In this document: one piece after another, positions 29,456 through 45,307 of the stretch | Layout of the letters: each line of letters begins with the position of its first letter | Numbering within the stretch: the first letter of the stretch is position 1 | Assembly (NCBI GenBank): GCA_031290885.1 | Contig: JAISLQ010000027.1 | Coordinates: forward strand, 1-47,397 | DNA: 47,397 nucleotides | Reading direction: 5' to 3' | From: Acidaminococcales bacterium | GTDB lineage: Bacteria; Bacillota; Negativicutes; Acidaminococcales; JAISLQ01 | Notes under the pieces: generated by a model | The model's database searches: none | Told to the model about the DNA's origin: nothing | Seen by the model: only the letters and a program-made list of their open reading frames with translations | Translations under genes and position numbers: made by a program

Positions 29456-29485
29456 GTTTTTCACCTCAATAATTTTTCGGTTGCC

Positions 29486-31084
29486 CTACCAGGCGCATAC
29501 CGCCCCATCGGCGCGCGGTTCCGTTGCGCCCATGAGCGTCCCGCCGGCGTCCCGCCAGATGATTTGCCCCCTGCCCATGGCCTGCCCGTCAACCGTCCTG
29601 ACAATGTCATGTCCGCGGCGAGCCAGTGCCTGCGCTATATGGTCGGGGAACTGGGGCTCAACCTGGATGGTTTTGCCGCTTATCCACTGCCAGCGCGGGG
29701 CGTCAAGCGCCGCCTGCGGATTAAGGAGAAAGTCGGCGGTATTGACAACTACCTGCAAATGTCCCTGCGGCTGCATAAAAGCGCCCATAACGCCGAAAGG
29801 CCCGACCGGTTGGTTGTTTTTGGTCAGGAAACCGGGAATTATCGTATGATAAGGTTTTTTGCCGGGCGCAAAACAATTGGCGTCGCTATGCACAAGGGAG
29901 AAGTTGGCGCCCCGATCTTGCAGCGCTATGCCCGTTCCGGGCACGACCAAACCCGAACCGAACCCTTTGTAGTTGCTTTGAATATAAGAAACCATGTTCC
30001 CTTCGCCGTCGGCGGTGGCCAGATAGACCGTACCGCCGCCGCCGAATGTCCCGGTGGCGGGCGCCAAGGCCTCGTTGCCGATAAGTTTGCGGCGTTCGGC
30101 GGCGTAGCCGCCGGCTAAAAGTTCGGGCACGGAAACCTGCATGAACCGCGGGTCGCCGATGTATTTCAAACCGTCGGCAAATGCCAGCTTGATGGCTTCC
30201 ATCTGCCGGTGATAAGTATCCACGCTTTCTTTGGCGTCAAAGTCAAAGCCTTTGAGAATGTTGAGCGCCAGCAGAGTAACCAGGCCGTGCCCGTTGGGGG
30301 GTATCTCCCACACCTCGTAGCCGCGGTAATTTATGCCGATAGGGTCCACCCACTCCGGGGCAAATTCCGCCAAGTCGCGCAAACGCAGATAGCCGCCGGT
30401 TTTTTGGGCGAAATCAATGATTTTTTCCGCCAGTTCCCCCCGGTAAAAATCCTGCGCCCTGGATTGAGCGATCGCTTTTAAGGAGGCGGCGTGGCCAGGC
30501 AAACGTACTGTTTCGCCTGGCGTGGGCGCTTGCCCCGTTGGGGCGAAAGTCGAGAACCAAGGCAGGAATTCATCGCCGCTATACTGTTTGAAGCGCTCCA
30601 ACGCGCTTTTCCACAACCTGCTGACTACCGGCGAAACCGGATAGCCGTTTTGCGCGTATTCGATGGCCGGCTCAAAGAGGGCGGCAAAGGAAAGTTTGCC
30701 AAACCGCTCATGCAGGGCGGACCAGGCGGCGGGCGCCCCGGGCACGGTTACCGGCAGCCAGCCGCTGTCCGGCATCTGCGCAAGGCCTTTCCCTTTCAGC
30801 ATGTCATAGGTAAGGCCAAAAGGCGATGGCCCGCTGGCGTTCAAGCCATGCAACCGGCCTTTTGCCCAGACCAGCGCGAAAGCGTCGCCGCCGATGCCGT
30901 TAGACGTCGGTTCCACCACCGTCAGGCAGGCGGCGGCCGCCACGGCGGCGTCAACGGCATTGCCGCCCGCGCGCAGTGCGTGAAGCCCCGCCTGCGCCGC
31001 CAATAGCTGCGAAGTCGCAACCATGCCTTTATTGGCGAAAACGACCTGTCTTCTGGATGGGTAGGGATAGTAAAAGTGATCCAT
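29486..31084 (-). CDS. Gamma-glutamyltransferase family protein, probably cytoplasmic
   Basis: The 532-residue protein matches the Ntn-hydrolase GGT family, which cleaves gamma-glutamyl bonds after self-processing. The conserved N-terminal part shows GMVATSQLLAAQAGLHALRAGGNAVDAAVAA and NGIGGDAFALVW. The probable processing and nucleophile Thr is Thr352 in GGGGTVYLATADGEGNMVS, followed by the family block GFGSGLVVPGTGIALQDRG. It has no signal peptide (start MDHFYYPYPSRRQ), unlike secreted GGTs. It lies between the permease and ATPase genes of a Gsi/Dpp-type importer, which fits cleavage of an imported gamma-glutamyl compound inside the cell. Confidence 0.9.
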   Translation of the reverse strand: MDHFYYPYPSRRQVVFANKGMVATSQLLAAQAGLHALRAGGNAVDAAVAAAACLTVVEPTSNGIGGDAFALVWAKGRLHGLNASGPSPFGLTYDMLKGKGLAQMPDSGWLPVTVPGAPAAWSALHERFGKLSFAALFEPAIEYAQNGYPVSPVVSRLWKSALERFKQYSGDEFLPWFSTFAPTGQAPTPGETVRLPGHAASLKAIAQSRAQDFYRGELAEKIIDFAQKTGGYLRLRDLAEFAPEWVDPIGINYRGYEVWEIPPNGHGLVTLLALNILKGFDFDAKESVDTYHRQMEAIKLAFADGLKYIGDPRFMQVSVPELLAGGYAAERRKLIGNEALAPATGTFGGGGTVYLATADGEGNMVSYIQSNYKGFGSGLVVPGTGIALQDRGANFSLVHSDANCFAPGKKPYHTIIPGFLTKNNQPVGPFGVMGAFMQPQGHLQVVVNTADFLLNPQAALDAPRWQWISGKTIQVEPQFPDHIAQALARRGHDIVRTVDGQAMGRGQIIWRDAGGTLMGATEPRADGAVCAW

Positions 31085-31105
31085 GTTGGTTTATCATCTC
31101 TTTTT

Positions 31106-32014
31106 CTATTTATTGGCCTTGGGATCGAGCGCCTGGCGCAGGCCGTCCCCCAGCAGATTGAAACCGAGGACGACCATCGATATGGCAAGGCCGGGCCACA
31201 CCACCAGCCAGGGCTGCGTATTAAGGTAGCTTTGCGCGTTGCGCAGCATGGAACCCCAACTGGGCTGCTCCGGGCTCGCGCCAAGCCCGATATAGGAAAG
31301 CCCGGCTTCGGCGATAATTGCCGTGGCCATGGCCAAAGTCGTCTGTACCAGCAAAGTCGCGGTAATGTTAGGAAAGATATGAAAAAGCGCGATGCGTTTG
31401 TCGGTCGCGCCGATGGAACGCGCCGCCTGCACATATTCGAGGTTTTTTACCGCCAATGTCTGCGCGCGGGTAATCCTTATAAAGGCCGGCAGGAACCCTA
31501 TCCCGATGGCAATCATGGCGTTGGTGAACCCGCCGCCCAAAACGGCCGCCATCGCCAGCGCGAGGATAAGGGAAGGGAAAGCTTGCAAAGCGTCCACCAG
31601 CCTCATGATCACCCAATGGTCCAGCGCGCCGCCCACATATCCGGCAAAAAGCCCTATCGGGACGCCGACGACGAGCGCTATGGCCACAGGGATGACGGCC
31701 GCCAGCATGGTCAGCCTGGCGCCGTAAACAAGGCGCGAAAAAGTGTCGCGCCCCAAGTCGTCCGTTCCCAGCAAGTGTTTGCCGCCCGGATCTTTGAGGA
31801 TGGCCTCATAGTCCTGCGCGAAAACAGGATCGAACGGCGCCAGCAGATCCGCCAGCAAGGCGGCGGCGATCAAACCGGCGATGATTGCCAAGCCGAGCAT
31901 CGCCTGGTGATTTCTCCTAAACCGCCGCAGAACGTTTCCGATGAAAGATGCCCTGATCATTGGCACTTGCGGATCGGACGCGCCCGTTTCGCCTTCCGCA
32001 AACAATTCGCTCAT
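31106..32014 (-). CDS. Dipeptide/glutathione-type ABC permease, DppC/GsiD-like
   Basis: The 302-residue membrane subunit has the OppC N-terminal helix (RFRRNHQAMLGLAIIAGLIAA) and LLGTDDLGRDTFSRLVYGARLTM. The EAA-type ATPase-docking loop is YVQAARSIGATDKRIALFHIFPN, followed by LSYIGLGASPEQPSWGSML. About six membrane segments are visible. The ATG at 32014 follows AAGGAGAG inside the end of the upstream permease gene, whose stop lies one base before it. Confidence 0.94.
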   Translation of the reverse strand: MSELFAEGETGASDPQVPMIRASFIGNVLRRFRRNHQAMLGLAIIAGLIAAALLADLLAPFDPVFAQDYEAILKDPGGKHLLGTDDLGRDTFSRLVYGARLTMLAAVIPVAIALVVGVPIGLFAGYVGGALDHWVIMRLVDALQAFPSLILALAMAAVLGGGFTNAMIAIGIGFLPAFIRITRAQTLAVKNLEYVQAARSIGATDKRIALFHIFPNITATLLVQTTLAMATAIIAEAGLSYIGLGASPEQPSWGSMLRNAQSYLNTQPWLVVWPGLAISMVVLGFNLLGDGLRQALDPKANK

Positions 32015-32015
32015 T

Positions 32016-32969
32016 TCAGTTGCTCTCCTTGCCAAGTTTTATTCTCGGATCGATTAGCGTATAAAGCACATCGACAATAAAATTTATGCCTACGACAATG
32101 ACCGCCGAAATAAGGATCGCGCCCTGCACGGTCGTATAATCACGGCTGAAAATGGCGTCGATGATGAGTTTGCCGTAACCGGGTATGGAGAAAATGCTTT
32201 CGGTTATCACCAGGCCTCCCAACAGGCTCGCGACCATGATGCCGCTGGCGGTAACAACGGGTATGAGGGAATTTTTCAGGGCGTGCCCCAAAATCACCCT
32301 GCGCATGGGCAGGCCTTTGGCCCTGGCCGTCCTTATATAGTCAAGGCTCATTACTTCCAGCAGCGAACTTCTGATCATCCGCATAAGAATCGCCGATTCC
32401 CTGAACCCGGTAGCGACCATCGGCATGATCATGGCCATCAGGTTGGCTGCGGGATCCACGCTGAAAGGAACGTAGCCGGAAGCTGGAAACCAGCCAAGCC
32501 TGGCCGCGAAAAACATTATGAACATCATGCCCAGCCAAAAATGCGGTATGGACATGCCGATAAAGGATATGGCCGTCCCTATGTGATCCGCCGCCCGATT
32601 AGGCTTTGAGGCGGCAATTATGCCGCTGGGCAGGGCTATGGCCAGCGCGACCAAAAAAGAGCCGACAATAAGTTCGGCGGTCGCGGGCAACCGCTGCAAG
32701 ATCAATTCGGTTACAGGCGTTCGATCCAGCAGGGAGCGCCCCAAGTTGCCGTGAAACACTTTGCTTGCCCAGTCAAGGTATTGGGTGAGCAAAGGCTTGT
32801 CCAACCCCAGTTCCGCCCGCAGGGCCGCAATCGCTTCCGGCGTGGCCTCGTCGCCTAAAATGACGGTGGCCGGATCTCCGGGAAGCATATGCAGCATCAT
32901 AAAGACCATCACGCTGACCAGAAACAGGACCGGCAGCGCCGCTAGTAGCCTGCGAATAACAAAACCCAT
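32016..32969 (-). CDS. Dipeptide/glutathione-type ABC permease, DppB/GsiC-like
   Basis: The 317-residue partner permease starts MGFVIRRLLAALPVLFLVSVMVFMM and has the conserved LPGDPATVILG, GNLGRSLLDRTPV and the docking loop YIRTARAKGLPMRRVILGHALKNSLIP. About six membrane segments are visible. The ATG at 32969 follows GGGAGGGG; an earlier start adds six residues without a site. It follows the binding-protein gene by 25 bases. Confidence 0.94.
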   Translation of the reverse strand: MGFVIRRLLAALPVLFLVSVMVFMMLHMLPGDPATVILGDEATPEAIAALRAELGLDKPLLTQYLDWASKVFHGNLGRSLLDRTPVTELILQRLPATAELIVGSFLVALAIALPSGIIAASKPNRAADHIGTAISFIGMSIPHFWLGMMFIMFFAARLGWFPASGYVPFSVDPAANLMAMIMPMVATGFRESAILMRMIRSSLLEVMSLDYIRTARAKGLPMRRVILGHALKNSLIPVVTASGIMVASLLGGLVITESIFSIPGYGKLIIDAIFSRDYTTVQGAILISAVIVVGINFIVDVLYTLIDPRIKLGKESN

Positions 32970-32994
32970 ACAAAACCCCTCCCACAAACCAAAC

Positions 32995-34518
32995 TTATTG
33001 TTTGCTCAAATTAACTGTGCGGATCATGCCGTCAGCTACAGGCATAAATCCTGCCACCGTTTTGCCCATTCCAAAAAGATTGTGTTCATGGTATAAAAAT
33101 ATATAAGGCGATTCTTTTAACGCCAAAACAACGATCCGATCATAAAGCTCTCTGCGTTTGGCGGCATCGGTGTCTTTGCGGGCGGCGTCCAGCAGCCTGT
33201 CCATTTCGCGGTTGCTGTATTTTGCGTAATTTAACGGGCCGTTGGTGATAAACCGATCGTAAATGTTCTGATCCGGGTCTATGCGCCCGCTCCAGGGCAG
33301 GAAGCTGACGTCAAACTGCCCTTTGGCCAGGTTGTCAAGCACCGTGCCAAAATCGGCCTTTTCTATGCTGGCGTTTATGCCGGCCGGCTTGAGCATGCTT
33401 TGTACCATCTGCACCACTTGTTGGGCGGCCGGATCCATCTCTACCGCCAAAGCAAAGTTAAAGCCGCCCGGCAATCCGGCTTGCGCCAGCAACTGTTTGG
33501 CTTTTTCCAAATCCGGCTTCCGCGGCTTGTCCAGGTCGCTGTAAGCCATGTTCCCGGGCGAAAAAGGGGAACGGCCGGGCGTGCCAACGCCGCTTAGCGC
33601 TACTTTTACAATCGCTTCGCGATCGATCAGGGCTTCTATGGCCTGCCGGACAAGGACATTGGAAAAGGGCGCTTTGTCCGCGTTCAGATATATACCGCCA
33701 AAACCCGGGCTGGGAATGTTGACCAAGTTTATTTTAGAATCATTGGCATAATTGCCCGCCTCGTTGAAGGGGAAACGGTTGGTTATATCAAGCTGCCCGC
33801 TTTTTAAGTTGACCAAAGCCACATTGGCGTCCGGAATTATCTTGTAGACGATTTTTTCCGCTTTGGGAAAACCGGCCAGCCAGTAATTTTTGTTTTTCTC
33901 CAGCGTTATGGTCGCTCCGCGCACTCTTTCTTTATAGACAAAAGGGCCGGTGCCGACAGGCGCGTTCATAAAGTCCGCCCCCAATTTTTTCGCCGCGGCG
34001 GGCGAGACCATCATGCCGGAACGATCGGTAAGAATGGACATGAAAGGGGCAAAAGGATTTTTTAAATATACCTCGACTGTATTGTTGTCAATAGCGACGA
34101 CCCTGTCCACCTCTTTCAGCTCGTTGCGCCGAACCGAGCTTTCGCCCATGTTGCGCGCGAAATTGAATTTTACCGCTTCGGCGTTAAAATCAGTGCCGTC
34201 ATGAAATTTGACGTTTTTGCGCAAATGGAAAGTATATTTTTTGCCGTCAGGGGAAATGTCCCACCTTTCCGCCAGCATGGGCACAATCTCGCCTTTTTCG
34301 TTCAAGTCGGCGAGCTTGTCAAAAATACTTTGGAAAACGTGCCTTTCAATAAAAGCCGCCGATACCGTTGGGTCAAGTTTCGGCGGGTCTTGGTGCAGGG
34401 AAATGTTGATGGCCCCGTCACCTTTCGCAACGGACGGCCCGGCGCTTTGGCCGCCGCCGCAAGCCGCCGCCAGGATACACATTGCCGCAGTTGCGCATAC
34501 AACAAACGCTTTTCTCAT
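32995..34518 (-). CDS. Extracytoplasmic solute-binding lipoprotein 1, SBP_bac_5 family
   Basis: The 507-residue lipoprotein has a lipobox ILAAAC near residue 20 and the SBP_bac_5 fold of DppA, OppA and GsiB. Blocks include LDPTVSAAFIERHVFQSIFDKL, KFHDGTDFNAEAVKFN and PVGTGPFVYKERVRGATITL. It is directly upstream of the permeases and is the likely cognate receptor. It is closely related to two further binding proteins upstream in the same strand run. ATG at 34518 follows GGAGGATTT. The leader just before the gene resembles that of binding protein 2. Confidence 0.93.
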   Translation of the reverse strand: MRKAFVVCATAAMCILAAACGGGQSAGPSVAKGDGAINISLHQDPPKLDPTVSAAFIERHVFQSIFDKLADLNEKGEIVPMLAERWDISPDGKKYTFHLRKNVKFHDGTDFNAEAVKFNFARNMGESSVRRNELKEVDRVVAIDNNTVEVYLKNPFAPFMSILTDRSGMMVSPAAAKKLGADFMNAPVGTGPFVYKERVRGATITLEKNKNYWLAGFPKAEKIVYKIIPDANVALVNLKSGQLDITNRFPFNEAGNYANDSKINLVNIPSPGFGGIYLNADKAPFSNVLVRQAIEALIDREAIVKVALSGVGTPGRSPFSPGNMAYSDLDKPRKPDLEKAKQLLAQAGLPGGFNFALAVEMDPAAQQVVQMVQSMLKPAGINASIEKADFGTVLDNLAKGQFDVSFLPWSGRIDPDQNIYDRFITNGPLNYAKYSNREMDRLLDAARKDTDAAKRRELYDRIVVLALKESPYIFLYHEHNLFGMGKTVAGFMPVADGMIRTVNLSKQ

Positions 34519-34601
34519 TTTAAATCCTCCCCAATTATTATGCAACACGGCAATTTGAACCCTGAGTGCCTTAATCCATCCCATCCCCTATCCGTTCGCC
34601 G

Positions 34602-35789
34602 TCAAAACCACGGCATCATGTCCATTACTGCCCATACTATCGCTGTGGTAATTGCCATGGCCATCACGTTGGCTACAAAGATGTGAATGCCTTCGGGCAA
34701 TTTTTCCCCTAAGGAAGATGCTACCGGCGCGCCTAAAATCCCGGACAATACAGCAATAAAGATGACTTTCGGAAGTTCGGCTCCAAACGCAAGTACGCAC
34801 CAGGGAGCCGAACTCACAACGGGAACATAAGTGCCGTACCATCCGCCATTATCGAACTTGCGGGCGTACAAAAAAATGCCCACGCCGGCCGCAATGAACT
34901 GTGCCAGCAAGATTGCCGGCAGATATTCGCCCGCAAGGCCGCTGAGCCCATGTTCTTTATTGATGATCCAATCGATTACCGCGCCGCCCAAAATACATGC
35001 GCCGACAATTTCATTGCCGTAAAAATGAGGCTCGGAAAATTCCGCAAAGGCACGGCGAACCGCCCACACAGGCGAAAAGACATCTTCTTTTGCGCCGCTT
35101 TCAGGAATGGGTTTCGGCTCAACCTTTTTTATCCAAGGAAGCACCCGGCACACGGCCATGACCGCGAACCCTGACAAGGCCATGCTCAGCACGTTACAGA
35201 TGCCGCCCGGGATCTTAAGCATCGGGAGCAGCGTCTTGGACAGCCAGTAGGAGATAGGGGCCGCCATGGATGCCGGCAGGATAATGGCCGTGAGCAATGT
35301 AGGGACAGTAGGGCCATAAGTCAGCATTAAAGCTGACGGGACGCTGACCAAAACAATAAAAGTGGCAACCCAGCTAACGCCGTCACGCCCGAGAAGGAAC
35401 AGGTACCCAAACAGGTACATGTTAGTCAAAAGCGCTCCAACCTGCGCGGCTAAAACCCAGGGCCAAGTATGGCTTGATCCGTAGCAGATGGGAAAACCTC
35501 GTTTTACGGAACCCCTGACAGCAAGCTGCCAAGCAATTGCGCCCCCCACAATCACCATGGCGCTGGAGAAAACACCTGCGGTGAAGTCAGCTTCTGTCCA
35601 GTTAATCATAAACCACAAAAACTGCTTTGAGGCATCGGATCCAATTGAATCAATGATGTTTTTGTAAGCGAAATATGTTATGCCCATGCTGGGGATCAGC
35701 GGCAGCATGACGTAAAACGCGAACCCAATCGCCACCGTGAGCAAAAATCCGGCCGGCGATCCGTACTGGCGCTTATTGTGACCAGCCAT
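34602..35789 (-). CDS. Polytopic membrane protein, family not recognised
   Basis: The 395-residue protein has about nine or ten hydrophobic segments, the first at residues 13-35. Re-entrant-looking glycine and proline-rich parts include MLPLIPSMGITYFAYKN, YGPTVPTLLTAIILPASMAAPISYW and GAPVASSLGEKLPEGIHIF. A cytosolic loop near the middle is charged (KKVEPKPIPESGAKEDVF). It does not look like EutH, an ABC permease or an MFS protein. It lies between two amidohydrolases and a binding protein, so I infer a transporter for their substrate or product. ATG at 35789 follows a GGAGG site. Confidence 0.75.
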   Translation of the reverse strand: MAGHNKRQYGSPAGFLLTVAIGFAFYVMLPLIPSMGITYFAYKNIIDSIGSDASKQFLWFMINWTEADFTAGVFSSAMVIVGGAIAWQLAVRGSVKRGFPICYGSSHTWPWVLAAQVGALLTNMYLFGYLFLLGRDGVSWVATFIVLVSVPSALMLTYGPTVPTLLTAIILPASMAAPISYWLSKTLLPMLKIPGGICNVLSMALSGFAVMAVCRVLPWIKKVEPKPIPESGAKEDVFSPVWAVRRAFAEFSEPHFYGNEIVGACILGGAVIDWIINKEHGLSGLAGEYLPAILLAQFIAAGVGIFLYARKFDNGGWYGTYVPVVSSAPWCVLAFGAELPKVIFIAVLSGILGAPVASSLGEKLPEGIHIFVANVMAMAITTAIVWAVMDMMPWF

Positions 35790-36082
35790 ACAAAGCCCTC
35801 CTCCAAATTTACTGGAAGCCGCGCTACACGGGACTTTTCCATGCGCTTTCCCGCATATCCCCAATAAAGCCCGGCCATGGTCTGCGCCGCCCTTTATGCC
35901 TGCTTTGCCGCAACCGTAAAATACATTTTCTTTTTGGGTTGCGCTTAGCGGCGGATACTTCCACTTGGAACCATATTTTCATCAGGCAAAATATGGCCGC
36001 CCCTGGCGATGCTCCCCTTTCGCAGGGGCAGTCTATCCGAATCTTCAAGCCGAGCTGGAAAACTGTGATAGCAAAGTGGTGT

Positions 36083-37435
36083 TTATTCTCCGTATTTAAA
36101 CATCGCCATGTCGCCAATGCCGGTGTTGGCTATCATGCCATAGGTAGTTACGAGACGGCCGGCATCATAGGCACGGCGGACGGCACGGTTTTCGAAACCC
36201 GCAATCCTTCCGTTGACGAAGGTATAGGTCGCCAGTTTATCGAGGCGGTCAATGCAGGTAATGTTGGCATAAGCGCCCACGCCAATGTGCCCGATTTTGT
36301 CATGCCAAAATTCGGTGCGGCCAGTAACGTCGCCAAAGTGCTTGGCGACGTTCCACGTCATGGTGGCGACGGAATCTTTCAAGCTGAGAATCCCCTGGTC
36401 CGCAAGTTCAATGATGCAGGGAACATCGTCGCGCGTATCGCCCGCGCCCTTGAGGGTAGCATCGTTGGCGCCGTCTGAGACGAGAATCTTGACCTTGCTT
36501 TGATGAAGCGAGTCCAATGCTATTTTCTGTGAGGCTTCGGGCACATACATGCACTCGCGGCTGCCTCGCCCGGGGCGCAATTGGGATGTAACGAATTCCG
36601 CTGTAACGCCCGGCTTTTTAATAAGTTCCAAGATAGCCTGGATACTTTCCACCGGATCTCCGTGCGTGCCGCAACCGGCAAAATCGGCGTGCCCTAAGTG
36701 GACTTGTCGGCCTTTCCCTGCCGCAACCACATGTTCTGCGCGGTTAGGATCCTGAGTATGGCTCATGAACATCAGTTTAGCCTCGGTACAAATCCGGTAA
36801 ACTGCCTCAAGATGCGCATCGGAAAGCAAAAAGTGCCCCATGTGATCCTTAATGCCGACACAAAGTTGGCCAGTCGAATTCGAGAACGCGTTGCGGGTGA
36901 TTTTAGTAAAGGCGACGTCAGGATCAAGTTCGCCTTTGAAAAATGCGACCAGGTCTTCGGTAGCCGCCATGGTACTTAGTACATTAGAGGCCCCCAAGTA
37001 CACGCCCACATTCATGGGGACGCCGCGATCCACTTCCGCGCCAATCAAGCCGGGAGCGATAAAGGTGTTGCCGGCGCCGGGCGAGAGCCCCATGGTTACG
37101 CCATCGGCAACGCCACGAATAATAGGGTCGGAAGAAACTTCAAATAAGTCATGAAGGTGCAGGTGCATGTCGATCAATCCCGGGACTACAAGCAGATTGG
37201 AGCAATCGACAATGATATCTCCCTTTTCGGATTTGATTTCATCCGCCACTTCAACGATGGCATCGCCAATAATGGCAACATCTTTTATGGAATCAATGTC
37301 ATTTTTGGGATCAACGACATGGCCTCCCTTGAGGATAGTGCGCCCCGTTTTTTTCATATTGCCGATAGTGTCGATCAATTTCCCATTTTTAAAGATTGCC
37401 GTACTCGTTAGGTAATTCATTCTCATTTGTTCCAT
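36083..37435 (-). CDS. Amidohydrolase-superfamily protein 1
   Basis: The roughly 450-residue protein has the amidohydrolase plan: an N-terminal beta part (TILKGGHVVDPKNDIDSIKDV), then VPGLIDMHLHLHD with the HxH metal motif. A Lys in VGIKDHMGH could be a bridging ligand. Later candidates are His in MSHTQDP and VHLGHADFAG, and Asp in LVSDGANDAT. It resembles dihydroorotase/hydantoinase-type enzymes that open cyclic amides, but the exact family is not clear. It is a paralogue of the next gene upstream. The start may be ATG 37435 or 37426. The 293-base gap to the membrane protein gene holds no clear feature. Confidence 0.82.
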   Translation of the reverse strand: MEQMRMNYLTSTAIFKNGKLIDTIGNMKKTGRTILKGGHVVDPKNDIDSIKDVAIIGDAIVEVADEIKSEKGDIIVDCSNLLVVPGLIDMHLHLHDLFEVSSDPIIRGVADGVTMGLSPGAGNTFIAPGLIGAEVDRGVPMNVGVYLGASNVLSTMAATEDLVAFFKGELDPDVAFTKITRNAFSNSTGQLCVGIKDHMGHFLLSDAHLEAVYRICTEAKLMFMSHTQDPNRAEHVVAAGKGRQVHLGHADFAGCGTHGDPVESIQAILELIKKPGVTAEFVTSQLRPGRGSRECMYVPEASQKIALDSLHQSKVKILVSDGANDATLKGAGDTRDDVPCIIELADQGILSLKDSVATMTWNVAKHFGDVTGRTEFWHDKIGHIGVGAYANITCIDRLDKLATYTFVNGRIAGFENRAVRRAYDAGRLVTTYGMIANTGIGDMAMFKYGE

Positions 37436-37579
37436 CGTCCTTCATCGGCCCCTTTCGCAACATTGTCAAGATGTTTTCCCTATAGCGCCTACGGCAGTTC
37501 ATGCCGATCGCTATATCACGGCTTTCTTTTTGAAGCTATAAGCAATTTTTGTACGCACAGTTTGCTGAAATCAAGCCGT

Positions 37580-38929
37580 TTATCTTTGGCGAGAGAGCAT
37601 CGCAAGGTCTCCGACGCCGGTATTGCGCAGCATCCCAAACTTGGAGATCCATCCGCCCGCCGCATAGCCCTTGCGAACCGCACGACTTTCAAAGGCGACA
37701 ATATCGCCGTTGACAATGGTGTAGGCGGCACGTTTAACCTTGGGGTCGACAACGGTAACATTGGCGAGCGCGCCCACGCCCAGATGCCCGACTGTCCGCC
37801 AAAAATCGCAGCCGCTGCGCTTTCGGATAAGCTCCGCCGGATTGCAGGTCATGGCTGCGACTGAATCTTTAAGCGCCATGATTCCTTCCCCGGCAAGTTC
37901 CAGTATCGCGGGGATGTTGTCTCTTGTATCGCCAAACCCTTTCATGGTGGCGTCATTTTGTCCATCCGAGACAAGAATCTTCACTTTCCCGCTTGCAAGC
38001 GCGTCATAAGCGACCTGCTGCGCCACTTTTGGCATAATGAGGCCTTCCCGGCAGCCTCCGGCAGAGCGCATCATAGTGGCAACGAATTCAGCGGTAATGA
38101 TTTCACTGTCTACCATATTGACGATAGCCCGCATGCCTTCAGCTGCATCCGCATGAGTACCGCAACCGGCGGCGGTGGCATGAGCAAGATGCAGCGGCCG
38201 GCCTTTAGAAAGGGCAGCGAGGCGGACGGCATGTTCCGGATCTTGAGTATGGCTCATGAATACAAGCCCAGCCCCATCGGTAATCTTATAGATGCGCTCA
38301 ATGCTCTCGTTGGGCATAATGAAGTGGCCCATGTGGTCTTTGATGCCTACGCAAAGCATCGCCGTGGTGATCGCAATGCCGTTTCGGGACATCTTGGTGC
38401 TTAGTGTGCCAGAATCCATTTCGCCGCGGAACATTTTAATGAGTTCATCGTCCGACAGGCAAGTTCCCAGTACATTGAGCGCCCCAAGGTATACGCCGAG
38501 GTTCATAGGAAGCCCGCGGTCTATTTCCGCGCCGAGCAATGAAGGCTCAAGAAAGGAATTGCCAGCACCCGGAGAAAGGCCCATAGTTACGCCATCCGCT
38601 ACAGCGCCAATGATTGGATTGGTAGTTACCTCAAAGAGATCGCCCAGGTGAAGGTGCATATCTATCAGGCCGGGCAGCACCATCAGCCCTTCGCAGTTAA
38701 GGATGGCATCTCCCTTTTCCGGCTTAATGTCCGCTTCACATTGTACGATTTGCCCAGCGCGAATCGATAGATCGGTTACGCTGTCCAGATTATTCCGGGG
38801 ATCGATCACCCTGCCCGCCTTCAGAATAGTCCTGCCTGAATCCCCTGCGTCCCTGACAGTGTCAATTTGCCGGTTGTTTTTGCCTGTAGCTATGATGCCG
38901 CCCAAAAAATCCATTTTGTTTTTGTACAC
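37580..38929 (-). CDS. Amidohydrolase-superfamily protein 2
   Basis: The 449-residue protein is colinear with amidohydrolase 1 and very similar to it: VLPGLIDMHLHLGDLFEVTTNPIIGAVADGVTMG, VGIKDHMGHFIM, MSHTQDPEHAVRLA, LAHATAAGCGTHAD and ILVSDGQNDATMKGFGDTRDN. Both end in the same NTGVGDLAM / NTGIGDMAM motif. The two probably arose by tandem duplication and may act on related substrates. The GTG at 38929 follows AAGGGGATG; ATG 38914 is an alternative start. The family reaction class is hydrolysis of amides or cyclic imides; the substrate here is unknown. Confidence 0.82.
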   Translation of the reverse strand: MYKNKMDFLGGIIATGKNNRQIDTVRDAGDSGRTILKAGRVIDPRNNLDSVTDLSIRAGQIVQCEADIKPEKGDAILNCEGLMVLPGLIDMHLHLGDLFEVTTNPIIGAVADGVTMGLSPGAGNSFLEPSLLGAEIDRGLPMNLGVYLGALNVLGTCLSDDELIKMFRGEMDSGTLSTKMSRNGIAITTAMLCVGIKDHMGHFIMPNESIERIYKITDGAGLVFMSHTQDPEHAVRLAALSKGRPLHLAHATAAGCGTHADAAEGMRAIVNMVDSEIITAEFVATMMRSAGGCREGLIMPKVAQQVAYDALASGKVKILVSDGQNDATMKGFGDTRDNIPAILELAGEGIMALKDSVAAMTCNPAELIRKRSGCDFWRTVGHLGVGALANVTVVDPKVKRAAYTIVNGDIVAFESRAVRKGYAAGGWISKFGMLRNTGVGDLAMLSRQR

Positions 38930-39080
38930 TATTCCATCCCCTTGTTCTTGCCCATTTTACGTCCCCTGCCTTTCAAGATACTGCCTTCGCATTTTTTATC
39001 GGCATAAGTATATTGCTTTCGAACCTTTTTGACGCTGCTTGGGGCTTGAAGGGTTGCGCCTGCTGTTTATTTTGGCCCAA

Positions 39081-40607
39081 TCATTTGCTTAAACCAACCG
39101 TGCGAATCATCCCGTCAGGCACGGCCATAAAACCTTTAAGTTCTTTAACGGTGCCAAAAAGGTTGTTTTCATGGTAGAGAAAAATATAGGGCGCCTGTTC
39201 AATCGCCAGCAGGCTAACTTGATCGTACAAAACTTTGCGTTTGGCATCGTTCGTTTCCCGGCGGGCCTCGTTCAAAAGCCTGTTCATTTCGCTGTTGTCG
39301 TATTTCATGTAGTTAAAGGAACCGTTGGCGATAAAACGGTCGTAACTATTTTGGTCCGGATCGGACCGGCCGCTCCAAGTTATATAAATCATGTCGAAAT
39401 TGCCTTTGGCGGCTTTATCCAGAACCGTGCCGAAATCCACTTTTTCCAAAACGGCGTTTATGCCGGCCGGTTTAAGCATGTTTTGCAAAACCTGAATTAT
39501 CTGTTGGGCCACGGGGTTGATATCGGTCGTCAGCGTAAAGCTGAACCCGTCGGCGAGCCCGGCCTCCGCCAAAAGGCGTTTGGCTTTGGCTGGATCAGGT
39601 TTGGCCGGTTTGTCGATCTCACTGTTGTAAGCCAGATTGCCGGGTGAAAATGCCGATCTCCCCGGCGTACCTATGCCGCTCAACACCACTTTTACAATCG
39701 CCTCGCGGTCGATCAGCGCTTCCACCGCCTGCCGCACCAGAAGATTGTCAAACGGCTTGCGGACGGTGTTGAGGGCAATGCCGCCGAAACCCGGGCTGGG
39801 CAGATTGATCAGGGTAACTTTCGGATCGTTGGCGTAATTTGCCGCCTCGTTGAAGGGAAAACGGTTGGAAAGATCTACCTGCCCACTTTTCAGATTAACT
39901 AGGGCCACATTGGCGTCCGGGATGATCTTATACACGATTTTTTCCGCTTTAGGCGCGCCGGCCAGCCAGTAATTTTTATTTTTTTCCAGCGTTATGGTTG
40001 CGCCGCGCACTCTTTCTTTATAGACAAAAGGGCCGGTGCCGACAGGGGCGTTCATAAAGTCGGCGCCCAGTTTTTTTATCGCCGCCGGCGAGGCCATCAT
40101 GCCGGAACGATCAGTGAGGATGGACAGAAAGGGCGCGAACGGGCTTTTTAAAGTTATCTCCACAGTATGGCTGCCAGCGGCGGCGATTGTGGCTATCTGG
40201 CTCAGTTCATTTTTCCGAAGGGATGAACTGTCATTCCTGTACCGCTCCAAGTTAAAAATCGCCGCTTCGGCGTTAAAGTCAGTGCCGTCATGAAATTTGA
40301 CGTTTTTGCGCAAATAGAAAGTGTATTTTTTGCCATCGGGGGAAACATCCCATTTTTCCGCCAGCATGGGGACGATCTCGCCTTTTTCGTTTAAATCGGC
40401 GAGTTTGTCAAAAATACTTTGAAACACATGCCTTTCCACAAAAGCCCCTGACACCAAGGGATCAAGTTTAGGCGGGTCCTGGTAGAGCGAAATGTTGATG
40501 GCCCCATCCCACTTAGCGGCGGGCGGCCCGGCGCTTTGGCCGCCGCCGCAAGCCGCTGCAAGGATACACATTGCCACAACCGTGAATACAATAAGCGCTT
40601 TTTTCAT
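39081..40607 (-). CDS. Extracytoplasmic solute-binding lipoprotein 2, SBP_bac_5 family
   Basis: The 508-residue lipoprotein has lipobox ILAAAC and the same blocks as binding protein 1: FVERHVFQSIFDKLADLNEKGEI, KFHDGTDFNAEA, MNAPVGTGPFVYKERVRGA and LINLPSPGFGG. Differences cluster in the middle, for example RYRNDSSSLRKNELSQIATI in place of the RNMGESSVRRNELKEVDRV region. This could alter ligand choice. AGGAGGATTTAAA precedes the ATG exactly as in binding protein 1. No permease genes of its own are adjacent. Confidence 0.93.
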   Translation of the reverse strand: MKKALIVFTVVAMCILAAACGGGQSAGPPAAKWDGAINISLYQDPPKLDPLVSGAFVERHVFQSIFDKLADLNEKGEIVPMLAEKWDVSPDGKKYTFYLRKNVKFHDGTDFNAEAAIFNLERYRNDSSSLRKNELSQIATIAAAGSHTVEITLKSPFAPFLSILTDRSGMMASPAAIKKLGADFMNAPVGTGPFVYKERVRGATITLEKNKNYWLAGAPKAEKIVYKIIPDANVALVNLKSGQVDLSNRFPFNEAANYANDPKVTLINLPSPGFGGIALNTVRKPFDNLLVRQAVEALIDREAIVKVVLSGIGTPGRSAFSPGNLAYNSEIDKPAKPDPAKAKRLLAEAGLADGFSFTLTTDINPVAQQIIQVLQNMLKPAGINAVLEKVDFGTVLDKAAKGNFDMIYITWSGRSDPDQNSYDRFIANGSFNYMKYDNSEMNRLLNEARRETNDAKRKVLYDQVSLLAIEQAPYIFLYHENNLFGTVKELKGFMAVPDGMIRTVGLSK

Positions 40608-40687
40608 TTTAAATCCTCCTTACATTGCTATGCGGCACGGCAATCTGCATCCATACTTTCTTTACTATATTTCTGCATATTAAAGCA

Positions 40688-41614
40688 TTAAGGCAATTCA
40701 TAAGCCGCCTGCTCCAGTATGTCGAGCGATATCTCCATCCGCGCCGTTTTGAGCGGGTCTACCACCTGGCAGACGCATAGATTGCCTTCAATGGAAAGGA
40801 GCATAGCGGCGGCGGTTTTATCCATACCCAACGCATCGGTCAAAAAGCCCTGCATGTTGCGCGCGGCCAAAGACGCGGCTGCGTCCAGCGTCCCGGCGGA
40901 TGCGAGCGCCATTAGCGCTCCGCCTTCTACCAGGAGAGGCAAAGGCAGTTTCAAGTCTTTTATCACTTGGAAAGACACCGTTACTTGCCCGGGAATTTCC
41001 AAACCGCAAACCACTACTTCGCCATCGCCCATAAGCGCGTGCAAATCACCTAAAGCAAAAAGCGCGCCTTTGACAAAAACCGGCAGGTAAAGCACGGCGT
41101 TTTTAACAATGCGTTTGCAGTCCATGTTCCCGCCGTGCATACCCGGCGTTCCGGTAGGAACCGCCTCCGCCGGCGGCGCGACGCCTATAACGCCGATCAT
41201 TGGACGTATCGGGAGCGCGCGGCGCAGCAAGCCGCCAGCCCTCGGCCAAGCAAAGAGCGCGCGGCCGTCTTTTATCGGCACAATCCTGGTAACTTCACCG
41301 ACGCTGTCCGGCAAAGCGCCAAAGCCCGGCGCGCTGCCGATCACTCCCTTTTCCGCCACCTGTATGTCGAGGATATCCACCCGCAGAATATCGCCGGCTT
41401 GCGCCCCTTCGATAAATACCGGCCCGGTCGCCGGATTGATGTGTTCCCAACTAACGCTGGTAAAAGGGACGAGTTCGGTTTCCAGGCGGTTGCTGAAACA
41501 ATCCCTTGTTTCAAAACATACGGGCGTTCCTTGCTTCACCGTCGCCACCGGCGGCGCGTCCTTCGACAGGGACAGCACATAATTTTCTGCGGGCACAAAG
41601 GCCTTTTCCGTCAT
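40688..41614 (-). CDS. Acetamidase/formamidase family protein
   Basis: The 308-residue protein matches the FmdA/AmdA family, which hydrolyses short amides to the acid and ammonia. Features are an early SVSWEHINPATGPVFIEGA (the usual P-x-T-G-P-V-x-V-x-G-A segment) and GDILRVDILDI. GMHGGNMDCKRI matches the family GGN-D motif, and LFALGDLHALMGDGEVVVCGLE the metal-binding G-D-x-H-x-x-x-G-D-G-E. It follows eutA by 71 bases and precedes binding protein 2. It may release ammonia from an amide related to the ethanolamine pathway. Confidence 0.9.
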   Translation of the reverse strand: MTEKAFVPAENYVLSLSKDAPPVATVKQGTPVCFETRDCFSNRLETELVPFTSVSWEHINPATGPVFIEGAQAGDILRVDILDIQVAEKGVIGSAPGFGALPDSVGEVTRIVPIKDGRALFAWPRAGGLLRRALPIRPMIGVIGVAPPAEAVPTGTPGMHGGNMDCKRIVKNAVLYLPVFVKGALFALGDLHALMGDGEVVVCGLEIPGQVTVSFQVIKDLKLPLPLLVEGGALMALASAGTLDAAASLAARNMQGFLTDALGMDKTAAAMLLSIEGNLCVCQVVDPLKTARMEISLDILEQAAYELP

Positions 41615-41685
41615 TTTTCACAATCCCCCATTATTTTCCGTGGGCGTAAACCGCATCTAGTTCATGTTTTAACCGGGGAACGGCA

Positions 41686-43110
41686 TTAATGGTTAAAAAC
41701 CAGGGTTTTGATCACCACCGGCAAGACGCGCCCGCCGCCCACCGGCGCGCCGATGTCAACGTAATCCCCTTCGCTGGGGCTTATCCCGTCAATGCAGATA
41801 AGGCGGCATCCGGGCGCTTTCACGCGAATGGCGTTGCCTAGCGCCTGCGCTATGTCCCTTTCCAATATGACGGTCAGGGGAAATTCCGGCGAGAGCGCCT
41901 CCCGCATGGCGCTTAAAAGCAACGCCGCCAGTTTTTGTATCTCAAAAAAATGAAAATACCCGCCGCCGGAAAGGGCCAACGCAAAATGCGCAAAACCGTC
42001 GGGAGTTTTGTAAAAGGAAGCTTTTTTTCGGATTGCCTCCACGATCGACTCTTCGGCTTCCTCGGCGGCGGAAAGTTTTAAAACCGGGATGTCTTTGACC
42101 GGCAGCGCAGAGCTGTCAAAAGCAACCGTACTGCCGCTGATTCGAGTCGCGTACATGCCCGCGCCGGCAACCGTGGCGCGAATGGTTTCATCCGGGCAAA
42201 AAACGCGGAATTTGCCATAAAACAAGCTGTTTCTCATTTCCCGCGCCAGCAGCACGCCTATATCGCCGAAAGCAAACGGGTCGTCCGGCGCTTTTTGATA
42301 CATACATTCCGCCACGCCGCCGGAGAAAGTAACAATGTCCACCGGAAAAGCGCTTTGGATATCTTTCGCGCCGCCGGTAAACATCATGGGCAAAATAGCG
42401 TCCTGCGCGCGCAAACCAAACAACCCCTCCAACAAGCTGGCCATTATGGCGCATAATTCACGCAGCGCCGCCGCATCTGCCCTGGCGCCTTCTTTTACCG
42501 GCAGGGCGTATCTGTCGGCCAAAAACTGTATTTTGCTGTAGACATACGATATCCGGCCTTCGGTTACTTTAACCAGCCGCCCGCCGATATCAAGGCAGGT
42601 TACCGCCAGCAATTCCCCGTTGCGGAAAATTGAAATGTTAGTTGTGCCGCCGCCAATGTCCAAGTTAGCCACAGTCGCGCCCTCGCGCCCGCTCAGGCGG
42701 TCGGCGCCGGCGCCCCGGCCGGAAAGGATAGATTCAAGGCTAGGCCCGGCCGTTACGACGACAAATTCGCCGGCCAAATTGCCTATAAGCCGCAACACCT
42801 CGGCAGCGTTGCTCTTTCTGGCCGTATCGCCGGTAATGATGACCGCGCCGGTCGTTACGTCGCCGGCCTTTACGCCCGCTTTGCCATATTCCGCGCCGAT
42901 GATCCGGCAAAGGGCGGGCGCGTCTATTTCCGTGGGCGAAACCAGCGGCGTGAAATAAACGGCGCTTTTATAAATCAGCGTTTTTCCCACAATCTCAATT
43001 TGAGGAACGGAGAAAGCGGACGCCGCGTTGCCCAGCGTCAGCCTGCTGAAAACAAGTTGGGCGGTCGATGTGCCTATGTCTATTCCTACGCTTAAAATGT
43101 CTTCGGCCAA
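41686..43110 (-). CDS. eutA: Ethanolamine ammonia-lyase reactivating factor
   Basis: EutA is an ATP-dependent chaperone-like protein that swaps damaged cobalamin out of EutBC. The 474-residue protein has the actin-like phosphate loops SVGIDIGTSTAQLVFSRL near the N-terminus and NLDIGGGTTNISIF near residue 150. VTFSGGVAECMY follows in the middle. The start is TTG at 43110, with AAAGGAT about eight bases upstream. It lies 13 bases after eutC, so EutB, EutC and EutA are probably made together. Confidence 0.93.
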   Translation of the reverse strand: MAEDILSVGIDIGTSTAQLVFSRLTLGNAASAFSVPQIEIVGKTLIYKSAVYFTPLVSPTEIDAPALCRIIGAEYGKAGVKAGDVTTGAVIITGDTARKSNAAEVLRLIGNLAGEFVVVTAGPSLESILSGRGAGADRLSGREGATVANLDIGGGTTNISIFRNGELLAVTCLDIGGRLVKVTEGRISYVYSKIQFLADRYALPVKEGARADAAALRELCAIMASLLEGLFGLRAQDAILPMMFTGGAKDIQSAFPVDIVTFSGGVAECMYQKAPDDPFAFGDIGVLLAREMRNSLFYGKFRVFCPDETIRATVAGAGMYATRISGSTVAFDSSALPVKDIPVLKLSAAEEAEESIVEAIRKKASFYKTPDGFAHFALALSGGGYFHFFEIQKLAALLLSAMREALSPEFPLTVILERDIAQALGNAIRVKAPGCRLICIDGISPSEGDYVDIGAPVGGGRVLPVVIKTLVFNH

Positions 43111-43123
43111 GGTGGGGATCCTT

Positions 43124-43921
43124 TCACAGTTTCAAATCGTGCACGGACAAAACTTTTTGCTTGAGCATCCGATCCGCCACATGGGCGATATACGCCCCGG
43201 CTTCCACCGGCGGCGTGCCCGCCCGATGAATATTGGCAATAACTATGTTGTTGTTCTCCGGCATGCCCGGATAGCCCATATAAGAGATGTAGGCGCTCAT
43301 GGACTCGGCGGTGGCCAAGCCGGGCCTTTCGCCAATCAGGACGATTGTTACCTTGGCGTTTAGCGCTTCGGTTATTTCATCCATCGCCCTTACTCTGCCA
43401 TAGCGCACGAAAAAGGGCGTGCCGCAATCTATCCCGCCGGCTTTCAGCCCTTGCAGGGCGCCCTGCAGCGTATCTTCGGCGTTGGCCTCGATCGCCGCGC
43501 CAGACAGCCCGTCCGATATATAAATCTGCACCGACGGGGCGGGGCGGCATTTTCCCTGGATGAACGCAATGGTTTCGTCGGAGAATTTTCTCCCAAGGTA
43601 CGGTTTGGTCAGATATTCGTCCTTGGACCGGCAAAGGGTGGAGACGGCGAACAGGCCGCAACGGGTTAAAAATTCTGCGGGAACTTCGGTAAATACAGCA
43701 TCCATAGCCGCCGCGTGGTCGGCGCGAAAGCGCAGGAGAGTACCCGTCAGGCAGCGCGGCCCACAGCGCCAGCAGCCGAGGCGCGCCGGCGTATGCTTTT
43801 TGCGTCGCAGCAGTTCATCCCGGTTGGCGGGATGGGGAATCAATATTTCTTCGCGCAAGTTGACCGCCGCTATGTCGGCAAGGCAATCTTTTCCATTTTT
43901 CGCCGTATCGGTAACCGCCAT
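43124..43921 (-). CDS. eutC: Ethanolamine ammonia-lyase small subunit
   Basis: EutC forms the active, adenosylcobalamin-dependent lyase with EutB. The 265-residue protein has TLLRFRADHAAAMDAVF, AFIQGKCRPAPSVQIYISDGLS, RYGRVRAMDEI and VLIGERPGLATAESMSAYI, all typical of EutC, which lines the cobalamin site. The usual R-x-G-x-G-P-R region reads TPARLGCWRCGPRC, with Cys50, Cys53 and Cys57 at places where I recall small or Pro residues in relatives. It follows eutB by 17 bases. Confidence 0.93.
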   Translation of the reverse strand: MAVTDTAKNGKDCLADIAAVNLREEILIPHPANRDELLRRKKHTPARLGCWRCGPRCLTGTLLRFRADHAAAMDAVFTEVPAEFLTRCGLFAVSTLCRSKDEYLTKPYLGRKFSDETIAFIQGKCRPAPSVQIYISDGLSGAAIEANAEDTLQGALQGLKAGGIDCGTPFFVRYGRVRAMDEITEALNAKVTIVLIGERPGLATAESMSAYISYMGYPGMPENNNIVIANIHRAGTPPVEAGAYIAHVADRMLKQKVLSVHDLKL

Positions 43922-43938
43922 TTTCCGCGCCGCCCCTG

Positions 43939-45303
43939 TCAGAGAAAAATCGAGCCGTCGCCGGCCGCTTCGGTTAAAACACCGTTTTCATCCATCAAGC
44001 CGCGTTTCATCATCCACAGATGAAATTCCCGCGCCGGTTTGCGCCCGGTCAATTCTCTCAGGGCCGCGTTGTCATGAAAACTGGTATTTTGATAATTAAG
44101 CATTACATCGTCGCCCATCGGCACGCCCATATAATAGTTTGCGCCGGCCAGCGCCGTGAGCATTGTGGCCATTTCCTGATCGTCCTGCGTTATCTGCGTG
44201 TGATTTGTGTAACAGGGGTCAAGACCCATCGGCAGCCCCAGCAGTTTGCCCATAAAATGATCTTCCAGGTTGGCCCTTATCATCTCTTTTCCATCGTATA
44301 GCGTCTCCGGCCCGATAAACCCAGACACGTTGTTTACCAGAAACGGCTCAAAACAACGCGCGAAACCGTAGGTGCGCCCTTCCAGCGTCAGCTCGTCCGC
44401 GCCGCGGTCGGCGCCGATTGACACTTCTGAGCCCTGGCCGGTTTCAAAATACAAAAGATTGGGCCCGGCGGCGAAAGCTTTCCGGCGCGCCAGCGCATAC
44501 GCCGCTTCAATCAATTTTTTGTCCACCCCAAAATTGCTGTTGGCGGCCTCCGTGCCGGCAATCGACTGAAACACCATGGAAAGCGGCGCGCCTTCCTCCA
44601 GCGCCTTCATTTGCGTGGTGATGTGGGAAAGCACGGTAATTTGCGTAGGTATTTCATGCTTGCTGATAAAGCCGAAAATACCCTCCGCTATGCGGCGCGT
44701 GCTTTCCACGCTGTCATTCACCGGGTTTATGCCTATGCAGGCATCGCCGCAACCGTAGGACACTCCTTCCATGACGCCGGTTACGATGTCATCGACGTCG
44801 TCGGTGGCGCTGTTGGCCTGGCAGCGGAACGACAGGGTGCCGGGCTGCCCGATTTCCGTATTGCAACGGGTAACGCGGGAAATTTTCCGCGCGGCATACA
44901 CCAGATCCATCGTTGACATTATTTTCGCCGCCGCCGCCGCCACTTCGCCAGTAAAAGCCCGGGCGAATCGCTCTATTTCCCGGCCGGTCGTTTTATGATC
45001 CAAAATCCATTCGCGCAATTCGCCGATAGTTTTGTTTTTCATCGCCTTGTACAGCGGTTGGTTGAGGCTGTCGATATTGGCCCTTGTAACCTCGTCGTCC
45101 TCGTAGGGAAGCACGGGGTTTTCCGTCAAGTCCCCCACCGTCATGGCCGCCAGCGCGATTTTGGCGGCTACCCGCTCGGATGCGCTCCGCGCCGCGATAT
45201 TTTGCAGCCTGTCCGCTGATTTTGGCTCGTTGGCTTTGGCCAGGACATCGGCAAGATTGCGAAATTCATAAGTTTTTCCATGCAGCAACGTTTTTAACTT
45301 CAT
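43939..45303 (-). CDS. eutB: Ethanolamine ammonia-lyase large subunit
   Basis: EutB is the catalytic TIM-barrel subunit. EutBC turns ethanolamine into acetaldehyde and ammonia by a B12 radical route. The 454-residue protein is full length and shows CNTEIGQPGTLSFRCQAN, YGCGDACIGINPVNDS, ETGQGSEVSIGADRGADE, ARCFEPFLVNNVSGFIGPE and LGLPMGLDPCYTNH. Four bases separate it from the upstream binding-protein gene. No eutD, eutE, eutG, eutT or shell genes lie in the window, so the fate of acetaldehyde is not visible here. Confidence 0.97.
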   Translation of the reverse strand: MKLKTLLHGKTYEFRNLADVLAKANEPKSADRLQNIAARSASERVAAKIALAAMTVGDLTENPVLPYEDDEVTRANIDSLNQPLYKAMKNKTIGELREWILDHKTTGREIERFARAFTGEVAAAAAKIMSTMDLVYAARKISRVTRCNTEIGQPGTLSFRCQANSATDDVDDIVTGVMEGVSYGCGDACIGINPVNDSVESTRRIAEGIFGFISKHEIPTQITVLSHITTQMKALEEGAPLSMVFQSIAGTEAANSNFGVDKKLIEAAYALARRKAFAAGPNLLYFETGQGSEVSIGADRGADELTLEGRTYGFARCFEPFLVNNVSGFIGPETLYDGKEMIRANLEDHFMGKLLGLPMGLDPCYTNHTQITQDDQEMATMLTALAGANYYMGVPMGDDVMLNYQNTSFHDNAALRELTGRKPAREFHLWMMKRGLMDENGVLTEAAGDGSIFL

Positions 45304-45307
45304 CGTC

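Follow-up and report, generated by a model that had tools for sequence, protein, structure and literature searches.

The 47,397-nucleotide contig JAISLQ010000027.1 of an Acidaminococcales bacterium (assembly GCA_031290885.1), the whole of which we call the window, encodes a polytopic membrane protein of 395 residues beside two tandem amidohydrolases. The new element in our analysis is the predicted fold of this membrane protein, which resembles that of urea channels and has its best matches among the urea transporters (UT). Genes for enzymes that hydrolyze C-N bonds recur next to its gene, and this pairing is the strongest clue to its function. We hypothesize that the protein acts as a channel of the UT fold, through which small neutral amides reach the cytoplasmic hydrolases encoded next to it. 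On balance we find this explanation probable, and we are more confident of the fold and the gene pairing than of the substrate.

How would such a system operate? The membrane protein would be a channel of the UT/SLC14 fold, from a branch covered by neither Pfam nor NCBIfam models, and would admit small, neutral compounds of the amide type (amides, ureides, or lactams) by diffusion. Conduction would be inward, and in the cytoplasm the neighboring enzymes would cut the C-N bonds of these same compounds and free usable nitrogen and carbon. In the window, the two amidohydrolases, binuclear-metal enzymes of a dihydroorotase/hydantoinase-like type, would be the partners, perhaps together with the FmdA/AmdA enzyme encoded nearby. 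Most Firmicute relatives would have as partners a single amidohydrolase of this type and an M20 deacylase, along with a PucR-type regulator.

Predicted fold and possible filter motif of the membrane protein

The AlphaFold model of the membrane protein, built with a 69-row alignment of the family, has a predicted local distance difference test (pLDDT) score of 90.3 and a predicted template modeling score (pTM) of 0.91. Foldseek, run with this model against the PDB, returned urea transporters as its four best matches (probability of 1.00, E values of 1.4e−3 to 7.2e−3, and template modeling scores of 0.52 to 0.63). With VIA-align and model residues 32 to 395, the top 16 entries were all urea transporters, with Z scores of 22.7 to 24.1 over 282 to 307 residues; the remaining matches among those listed were Amt/Rh/Mep2 channels (Z of 12.3 to 14.8), about 8 to 9 Z units below. 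Model residues 1 to 31 form an extra N-terminal helix outside the UT match. The two halves of the protein are homologous to each other (hhalign, 99.9%, E value of 3e−33), whereas 20 column shuffles reach at most 1.75%; the halves of urea transporters give 99.6% in the same test. As modeled, the fold is of the passive channel type rather than that of a secondary transporter. A first-pass annotation of the window, made from the sequence alone, had proposed a structure prediction for this protein, and the prediction brought up no clear match to a non-transport family, urea channels being the best match.

The same annotation had described a protein of 395 residues that fits no recognized transporter family, and both parts of this description stand. 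The longest open reading frame (34602 to 35864, minus strand) has a TTG start and 420 codons' worth of protein, but translation almost certainly begins at the ATG at 35789, since most relatives have 395 to 415 residues and the only other genome of the same genus that we found has a stop codon just upstream of the matching ATG. The window protein had no Pfam match at an E value of ≤1, no NCBIfam match at ≤0.1, and no PDB sequence match at ≤10 (phmmer); a profile search of the PDB gave nothing of note, and PHROGs gave no answer. The 69 rows produced only stray family matches, with best E values of 0.003 in Pfam and 0.0024 in NCBIfam. The urea transporter family PF03253 was not among the families listed for these rows at an E value of ≤1 (25 of 26), nor was it found for the window protein. 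We rejected an identity as ThrE, for which weak matches occurred in 8 of the 69 rows (best E value of 0.003), as the fold search points elsewhere. A literature search, judged by titles and the openings of abstracts, brought up no paper that we recognized as describing this family.

Each half of the protein carries a conserved E-x-x-F motif, with E66 in 66 of 69 rows, F69 in 59 (and Y in 7 more), E253 in 65 (and D in the other 4), and F256 in 67. In a weak profile alignment, the T/S-E-x-x-F of the membrane protein falls on the S/G-Q-V-x-F/L of urea transporters. The filter residues named in the published account include E187, V188, and F190 of dvUT in one half and, in the other, Q67 and V68 of UT-A2 (PMC4357013). 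The dvUT sequence reads GQVMF and GEVMF at its filter motifs. The E-x-x-F of each half is plausibly the counterpart of the urea-channel filter motif, and the two motifs together may line a selectivity filter. The membrane protein thus plausibly works like a urea channel, though by profile it is not a member of the UT family.

Hydrolase neighbors across relatives and the roles they suggest

A genome scan located 303 places with relatives of the membrane protein, of which the best 80 were kept, a selection biased toward members that resemble the window protein. Within these 80, the hosts are Firmicutes, Actinomycetota, Pseudomonadota, and one archaeal assembly; relatives were also found on six plasmids. 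The family is sparse in evenly drawn genomes. In the phylum of the window, 7 of 298 genomes were positive, counting the window's own and one with a fragment; in Actinomycetota, 5 of 198 had a profile match, one of them the centre genome; and in Pseudomonadota, the single positive among 200 was the centre genome itself. Two of the five actinomycete matches (L153 and L154) were dropped as chance, as they cover only 72 to 75 profile positions and look by eye like iron-type ABC (ATP-binding cassette) permeases. The fragment (L162, G099:C45:4497-4652) spans 59 residues and is probably a decayed copy of the membrane protein.

We counted the neighbors in 90 loci, leaving out ten others as duplicates or short versions. 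A C-N hydrolase gene lies within 1.5 kb of the membrane-protein gene in 71 of these loci, and in 70 it is on the same strand. The hidden Markov models for the hydrolases were built from clusters near the membrane protein, so this count was not blind; the fall-off with distance and a set of evenly drawn genomes serve as controls. Hydrolase genes number 112, 22, 2, 1, 2, 0, and 0 in successive kilobases from the membrane-protein gene (measured between near edges), and in the evenly drawn genomes a hydrolase is encoded next door to five of six full-length members from the window's own phylum (window included) and to both new actinomycete members. All 130 neighboring enzymes (72 + 58) were confirmed by Pfam, and they span seven unrelated families: 46 CN_hydrolase, 26 asparaginase, 19 amidase, 18 Amidohydro_1, 15 M20, 5 FmdA_AmdA, and 1 AAT. 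A quick tree of 75 rows with long branches shows at least 15 changes of partner class ("none" included among the classes) and at least 5 changes between having a partner and lacking one. Thus, the gene-neighborhood check, which the first-pass annotation had also called for in respect of the amidohydrolase pair, uncovered a strongly conserved pairing of the membrane protein with C-N hydrolases. The partner itself is not fixed and may be an amidase, nitrilase, asparaginase, amidohydrolase, M20, FmdA/AmdA, or C45 enzyme; we therefore word the substrate class generally, as a small amide.

The arrangement of the genes follows the host group. The usual operon in Firmicutes consists of a PucR regulator, an amidohydrolase, an M20 deacylase, and the membrane protein; the order in Pseudomonas is nitrilase-type amidase, membrane protein, and asparaginase; and in many Actinomycetota, a LacI regulator, an amidase, and a nitrilase-type amidase accompany the membrane protein. 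An FmdA/AmdA formamidase-family gene directly adjoins the membrane-protein gene in four Firmicute loci (L035, L036, L040, and L042), and a C45 acyltransferase/hydrolase is the neighbor in one locus. In L036 (4933 to 7340), two tandem FmdA/AmdA genes follow the membrane-protein gene, echoing the tandem amidohydrolases of the window. In Bacillus timonensis (L031, 3570 to 11114), PucR, amidohydrolase, M20, and membrane-protein genes are followed by two nitrilase-type open reading frames (295 and 245 residues), and the Firmicute and Pseudomonas partner types are therefore linked in one cluster. On plasmids of Prescottella and Rhodococcus (L010 and L014), the cluster also contains genes for an AmiS/UreI transporter, another amidase, and a member of the glutamine-synthetase family, so these plasmids may carry predicted amide channels of two kinds.

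Several observations weigh against a UT-fold channel that supplies amides to the hydrolases. The fold is a predicted model and not a solved structure, and its comparison with the PDB gave no Foldseek match at an E value of ≤0.001. Similarity to urea transporters is marginal both between whole profiles (0.5%, E value of 0.11) and between merged repeats (25.3%, E value of 7.6e−4; none of 100 block shuffles scored as high, the best reaching 24.9%). The Sm threonines of urea transporters (T130 and T294 in dvUT) have no clear counterpart; by eye, the likely place holds mostly G or A followed by N (positions 198 and 199), with N374 in the other half, an assignment not fixed by structure. M20 enzymes, C45 enzymes, and some amidohydrolases act on charged substrates, which presumably would not be expected to pass a urea-type pore, and in the window the hydrolases could instead be fed by its own peptide-type ABC system. 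Finally, in 17 of the 90 loci such a hydrolase is absent within a distance of 2 kb. These loci include whole clades from Mycobacterium/Actinoplanes and Arthrobacter, which have as neighbors alpha/beta hydrolases, MOSC-type oxidoreductases, or nothing similar. In these clades either the pairing was lost or the membrane protein is used otherwise.

The mycobacterial loci L056, L063, L065, and L080 (about 6 to 11 kb) have no amide hydrolases nearby; several of them have an alpha/beta hydrolase gene upstream and a gene of the MOSC/ferredoxin-reductase type downstream.

The membrane protein could also pass the product of the enzymes, as an ammonia channel that releases or equilibrates the NH3 they make in the manner of Amt/Rh proteins. 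Ammonia is a product common to amidases, nitrilase-type amidases, asparaginases, and formamidases, which would explain the occurrence of unrelated enzymes with one membrane protein, and Amt/Rh channels are its next-best structural matches. However, this role is unlikely given the distance in Z score by which the UT matches lead. A twin-His pattern is not evident either (H369, conserved in 61 of 69 rows, is in the second half only and was not mapped onto the Amt pore), and the M20 and C45 partners are not expected to release ammonia.

A UT-fold channel might instead conduct urea itself, as a product of ureide breakdown or as an alternative nitrogen source. This would agree with the best structural matches, with the resemblance of the amidohydrolase model to enzymes of ureides and cyclic ureides, such as dihydropyrimidinase and allantoinase, and with PucR, which is named for purine catabolism. 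We think that there is little chance of this, as urease is not annotated beside the membrane protein in the five annotated plasmid loci, and 9 of the 33 genomes that hold the membrane protein have an ordinary PF03253 urea transporter elsewhere (the window's own genome gave no PF03253 match). Moreover, the common partner enzymes presumably do not release urea.

It is very unlikely that the protein is no channel at all and serves as a membrane sensor, scaffold, or chaperone on a UT/Amt fold that recruits or regulates the hydrolases. Sensor Amt proteins (6eu6 and 8qj3) are among the structural matches, and the orphan clades without hydrolase neighbors could have another role of this kind; yet the conservation of E-x-x-F in both halves resembles a retained rather than a decayed pore, and there is no fused sensory domain, most rows being about 395 to 415 residues long. 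Chance co-occurrence of a mobile accessory protein with amide hydrolases in nitrogen-scavenging islands would suit the patchy spread (a few percent or less of drawn genomes) and the plasmid copies, but it is highly improbable in view of the immediate same-strand adjacency, which persists across the partner changes and in the evenly drawn genomes.

We therefore keep to a channel that admits the amides on which its partner enzymes act. It is possible, and we propose it tentatively, that these proteins make up an unrecognized third branch of the UT/Amt fold, a sparse, cross-domain family of amide channels whose paired E-x-x-F filters favor small amides over urea and which unrelated hydrolases recruited repeatedly.

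The amidohydrolases and their setting in the window

The first-pass annotation had recognized two duplicated amidohydrolases next to the membrane protein, and the pair, which lies just upstream of it, is indeed 53% identical over 447 columns (E value of 4e−174). Both copies score above the cut-off of Pfam Amidohydro_1, and H91, H93, K196, H226, H249, and D321 (copy A numbering), which we take to be the full binuclear metal-ligand set of the amidohydrolase superfamily, are present in both copies and invariant in all 17 family rows. The NCBIfam models for hydantoinase, dihydropyrimidinase, allantoinase, and dihydroorotase all stayed far under their cut-offs for both copies (29.5 and 33.2 bits against 393 for D-hydantoinase; 26 to 34 bits against 358 to 631 for allantoinase). 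Among the nearest solved structures, judged from the profile and from a weak model, are dihydroorotase, dihydropyrimidinase, and allantoinase; Foldseek ranked these three followed by prolidase, which is a hint only as the amidohydrolase model is poor (pLDDT of 64.2). The M20 enzyme of the relatives is of the ArgE/DapE deacylase type and not a named carbamoylase. A cyclic amide or ureide would be a reasonable substrate for the amidohydrolase, with M20 as a second step in the relatives. For the window, the annotation had guessed at a transporter-hydrolase pair for a cyclic amide or imide. The predicted fold and the gene pairing support the transporter-hydrolase part; the cyclic part is no more than plausible, though it fits the dihydroorotase/dihydropyrimidinase-like amidohydrolases.

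In the tree, the window protein falls together with members from Lachnospiraceae in which the PucR-amidohydrolase-M20 operon is present (a set of three). No M20 or PucR partner lies within 7 kb of the window's membrane-protein gene, and five M20 genes occur elsewhere in its genome. The simplest history is that the window lineage kept the channel and the amidohydrolase and then duplicated the enzyme, without a nearby M20 or PucR gene.

The same-genus genome shows the same order of amidohydrolase, amidohydrolase, and membrane protein; one of its contigs carries, in the order of the window, the first part of the membrane protein, amidohydrolases A and B, a solute-binding protein, FmdA, and EutA. 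Between the two genomes, the ratio of nonsynonymous to synonymous substitution rates (dN/dS) is 0.056 for amidohydrolase A, 0.102 for amidohydrolase B, and 0.164 (219 codons) and 0.047 (150 codons) for the N- and C-terminal parts of the membrane protein. With low dN/dS in all three, these are therefore real genes under purifying selection.

Table 1. Genes at and around the membrane-protein locus of the window
Feature	Position	Strand	Remarks
Gamma-glutamyltranspeptidase family protein	29486-31084	−	Within the same array
Solute-binding protein paralogue	32995-34584	−	Flanks the block; likeness of translation judged by eye
Membrane protein	34602-35789	−	395 aa; predicted urea-transporter fold with two homologous halves and an N-terminal helix
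Amidohydrolase A	36083-37435	−	450 aa; dihydroorotase/hydantoinase-like; HxH, K196, H226, H249, and D321 all present
Amidohydrolase B	37580-38929	−	449 aa; GTG start; tandem duplicate of A with an identical ligand set
Extracellular solute-binding protein family 5	39081-40607	−	SBP_bac_5 (Pfam); flanks the block
FmdA/AmdA-type acetamidase/formamidase family protein	40688-41614	−	308 aa
EutA, EutC, and EutB	41686-45303	−	Ethanolamine ammonia-lyase and its reactivase; upstream on the same strand

The block of three genes separates two solute-binding proteins, as the first-pass annotation had noted (Table 1). Its suggestion of a deviating base composition does not hold, as the five 1-kb bins spanning 34001 to 39000 have a G+C content of 0.510 to 0.536, within the 0.459 to 0.620 of the whole window. 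The idea of a self-contained module agrees with the PucR-headed operon that many relatives have to themselves, whereas in the window the genes are part of a longer co-directional array. In this array (27501 to 46834), the genes run in the order solute-binding protein, EutB, EutC, EutA, FmdA/AmdA, solute-binding protein, amidohydrolase B, amidohydrolase A, membrane protein, solute-binding protein, two permease-like genes, gamma-glutamyltranspeptidase, and two ATPase-like genes. Nine proteins were named by scanning against profiles and two further binding proteins, the permeases, and the ATPases by eye. The array thus joins EutBCA and FmdA/AmdA with three paralogous binding proteins and permeases and ATPases of the peptide type, and the gamma-glutamyltranspeptidase gene sits between the permease and ATPase genes. 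The region looks like one for amide and amine scavenging, and the array is possibly a single scavenging pathway for gamma-glutamyl or ethanolamine compounds.

Significance and comparison with known systems

Urea channels share a small, well-studied fold that is associated chiefly with a single solute. If our hypothesis is true, a new branch linked to amide hydrolases of many kinds would illustrate how the same pore was retuned for other amides and offer a ready comparison set for the filter. It would also give a function to a family that the copies of Pfam and NCBIfam used here do not cover and help to name the substrates of several orphan enzymes of soil and gut bacteria (amidases, nitrilases, and amidohydrolases).

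The proposed system shares features with four known ones. The Firmicute operon recalls the pairs of hydantoinase/dihydropyrimidinase and carbamoylase in that an amidohydrolase from the dihydroorotase/dihydropyrimidinase neighborhood is followed by M20; it differs from them in the low scores with the hydantoinase, allantoinase, and dihydroorotase models and in the ArgE/DapE type of its M20 enzyme. AmiS/UreI amide/urea channels are likewise encoded beside amidases, in L010 and L014 within the same plasmid cluster, but they have a different, shorter fold; their genes there are about 650 bp long, that of the membrane protein is about 1.2 kb, and its rows match no such Pfam model. Amt/Rh channels come second by structure, and their conserved histidine pair was not noted in the membrane protein. 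Urea transporters of the UT/SLC14 family (PF03253; dvUT, UT-A, and UT-B) are closest. The membrane protein departs from them in its lack of a PF03253 match and its marginal sequence similarity, in the pairing of its gene with amide hydrolases, in a conserved E and a TF(V/I)PxVS-type loop in both halves, and in the extra N-terminal helix; it shares with them the predicted fold, the two homologous halves, and, in each half, an aromatic residue with an acidic or amide residue three positions N-terminal to it.

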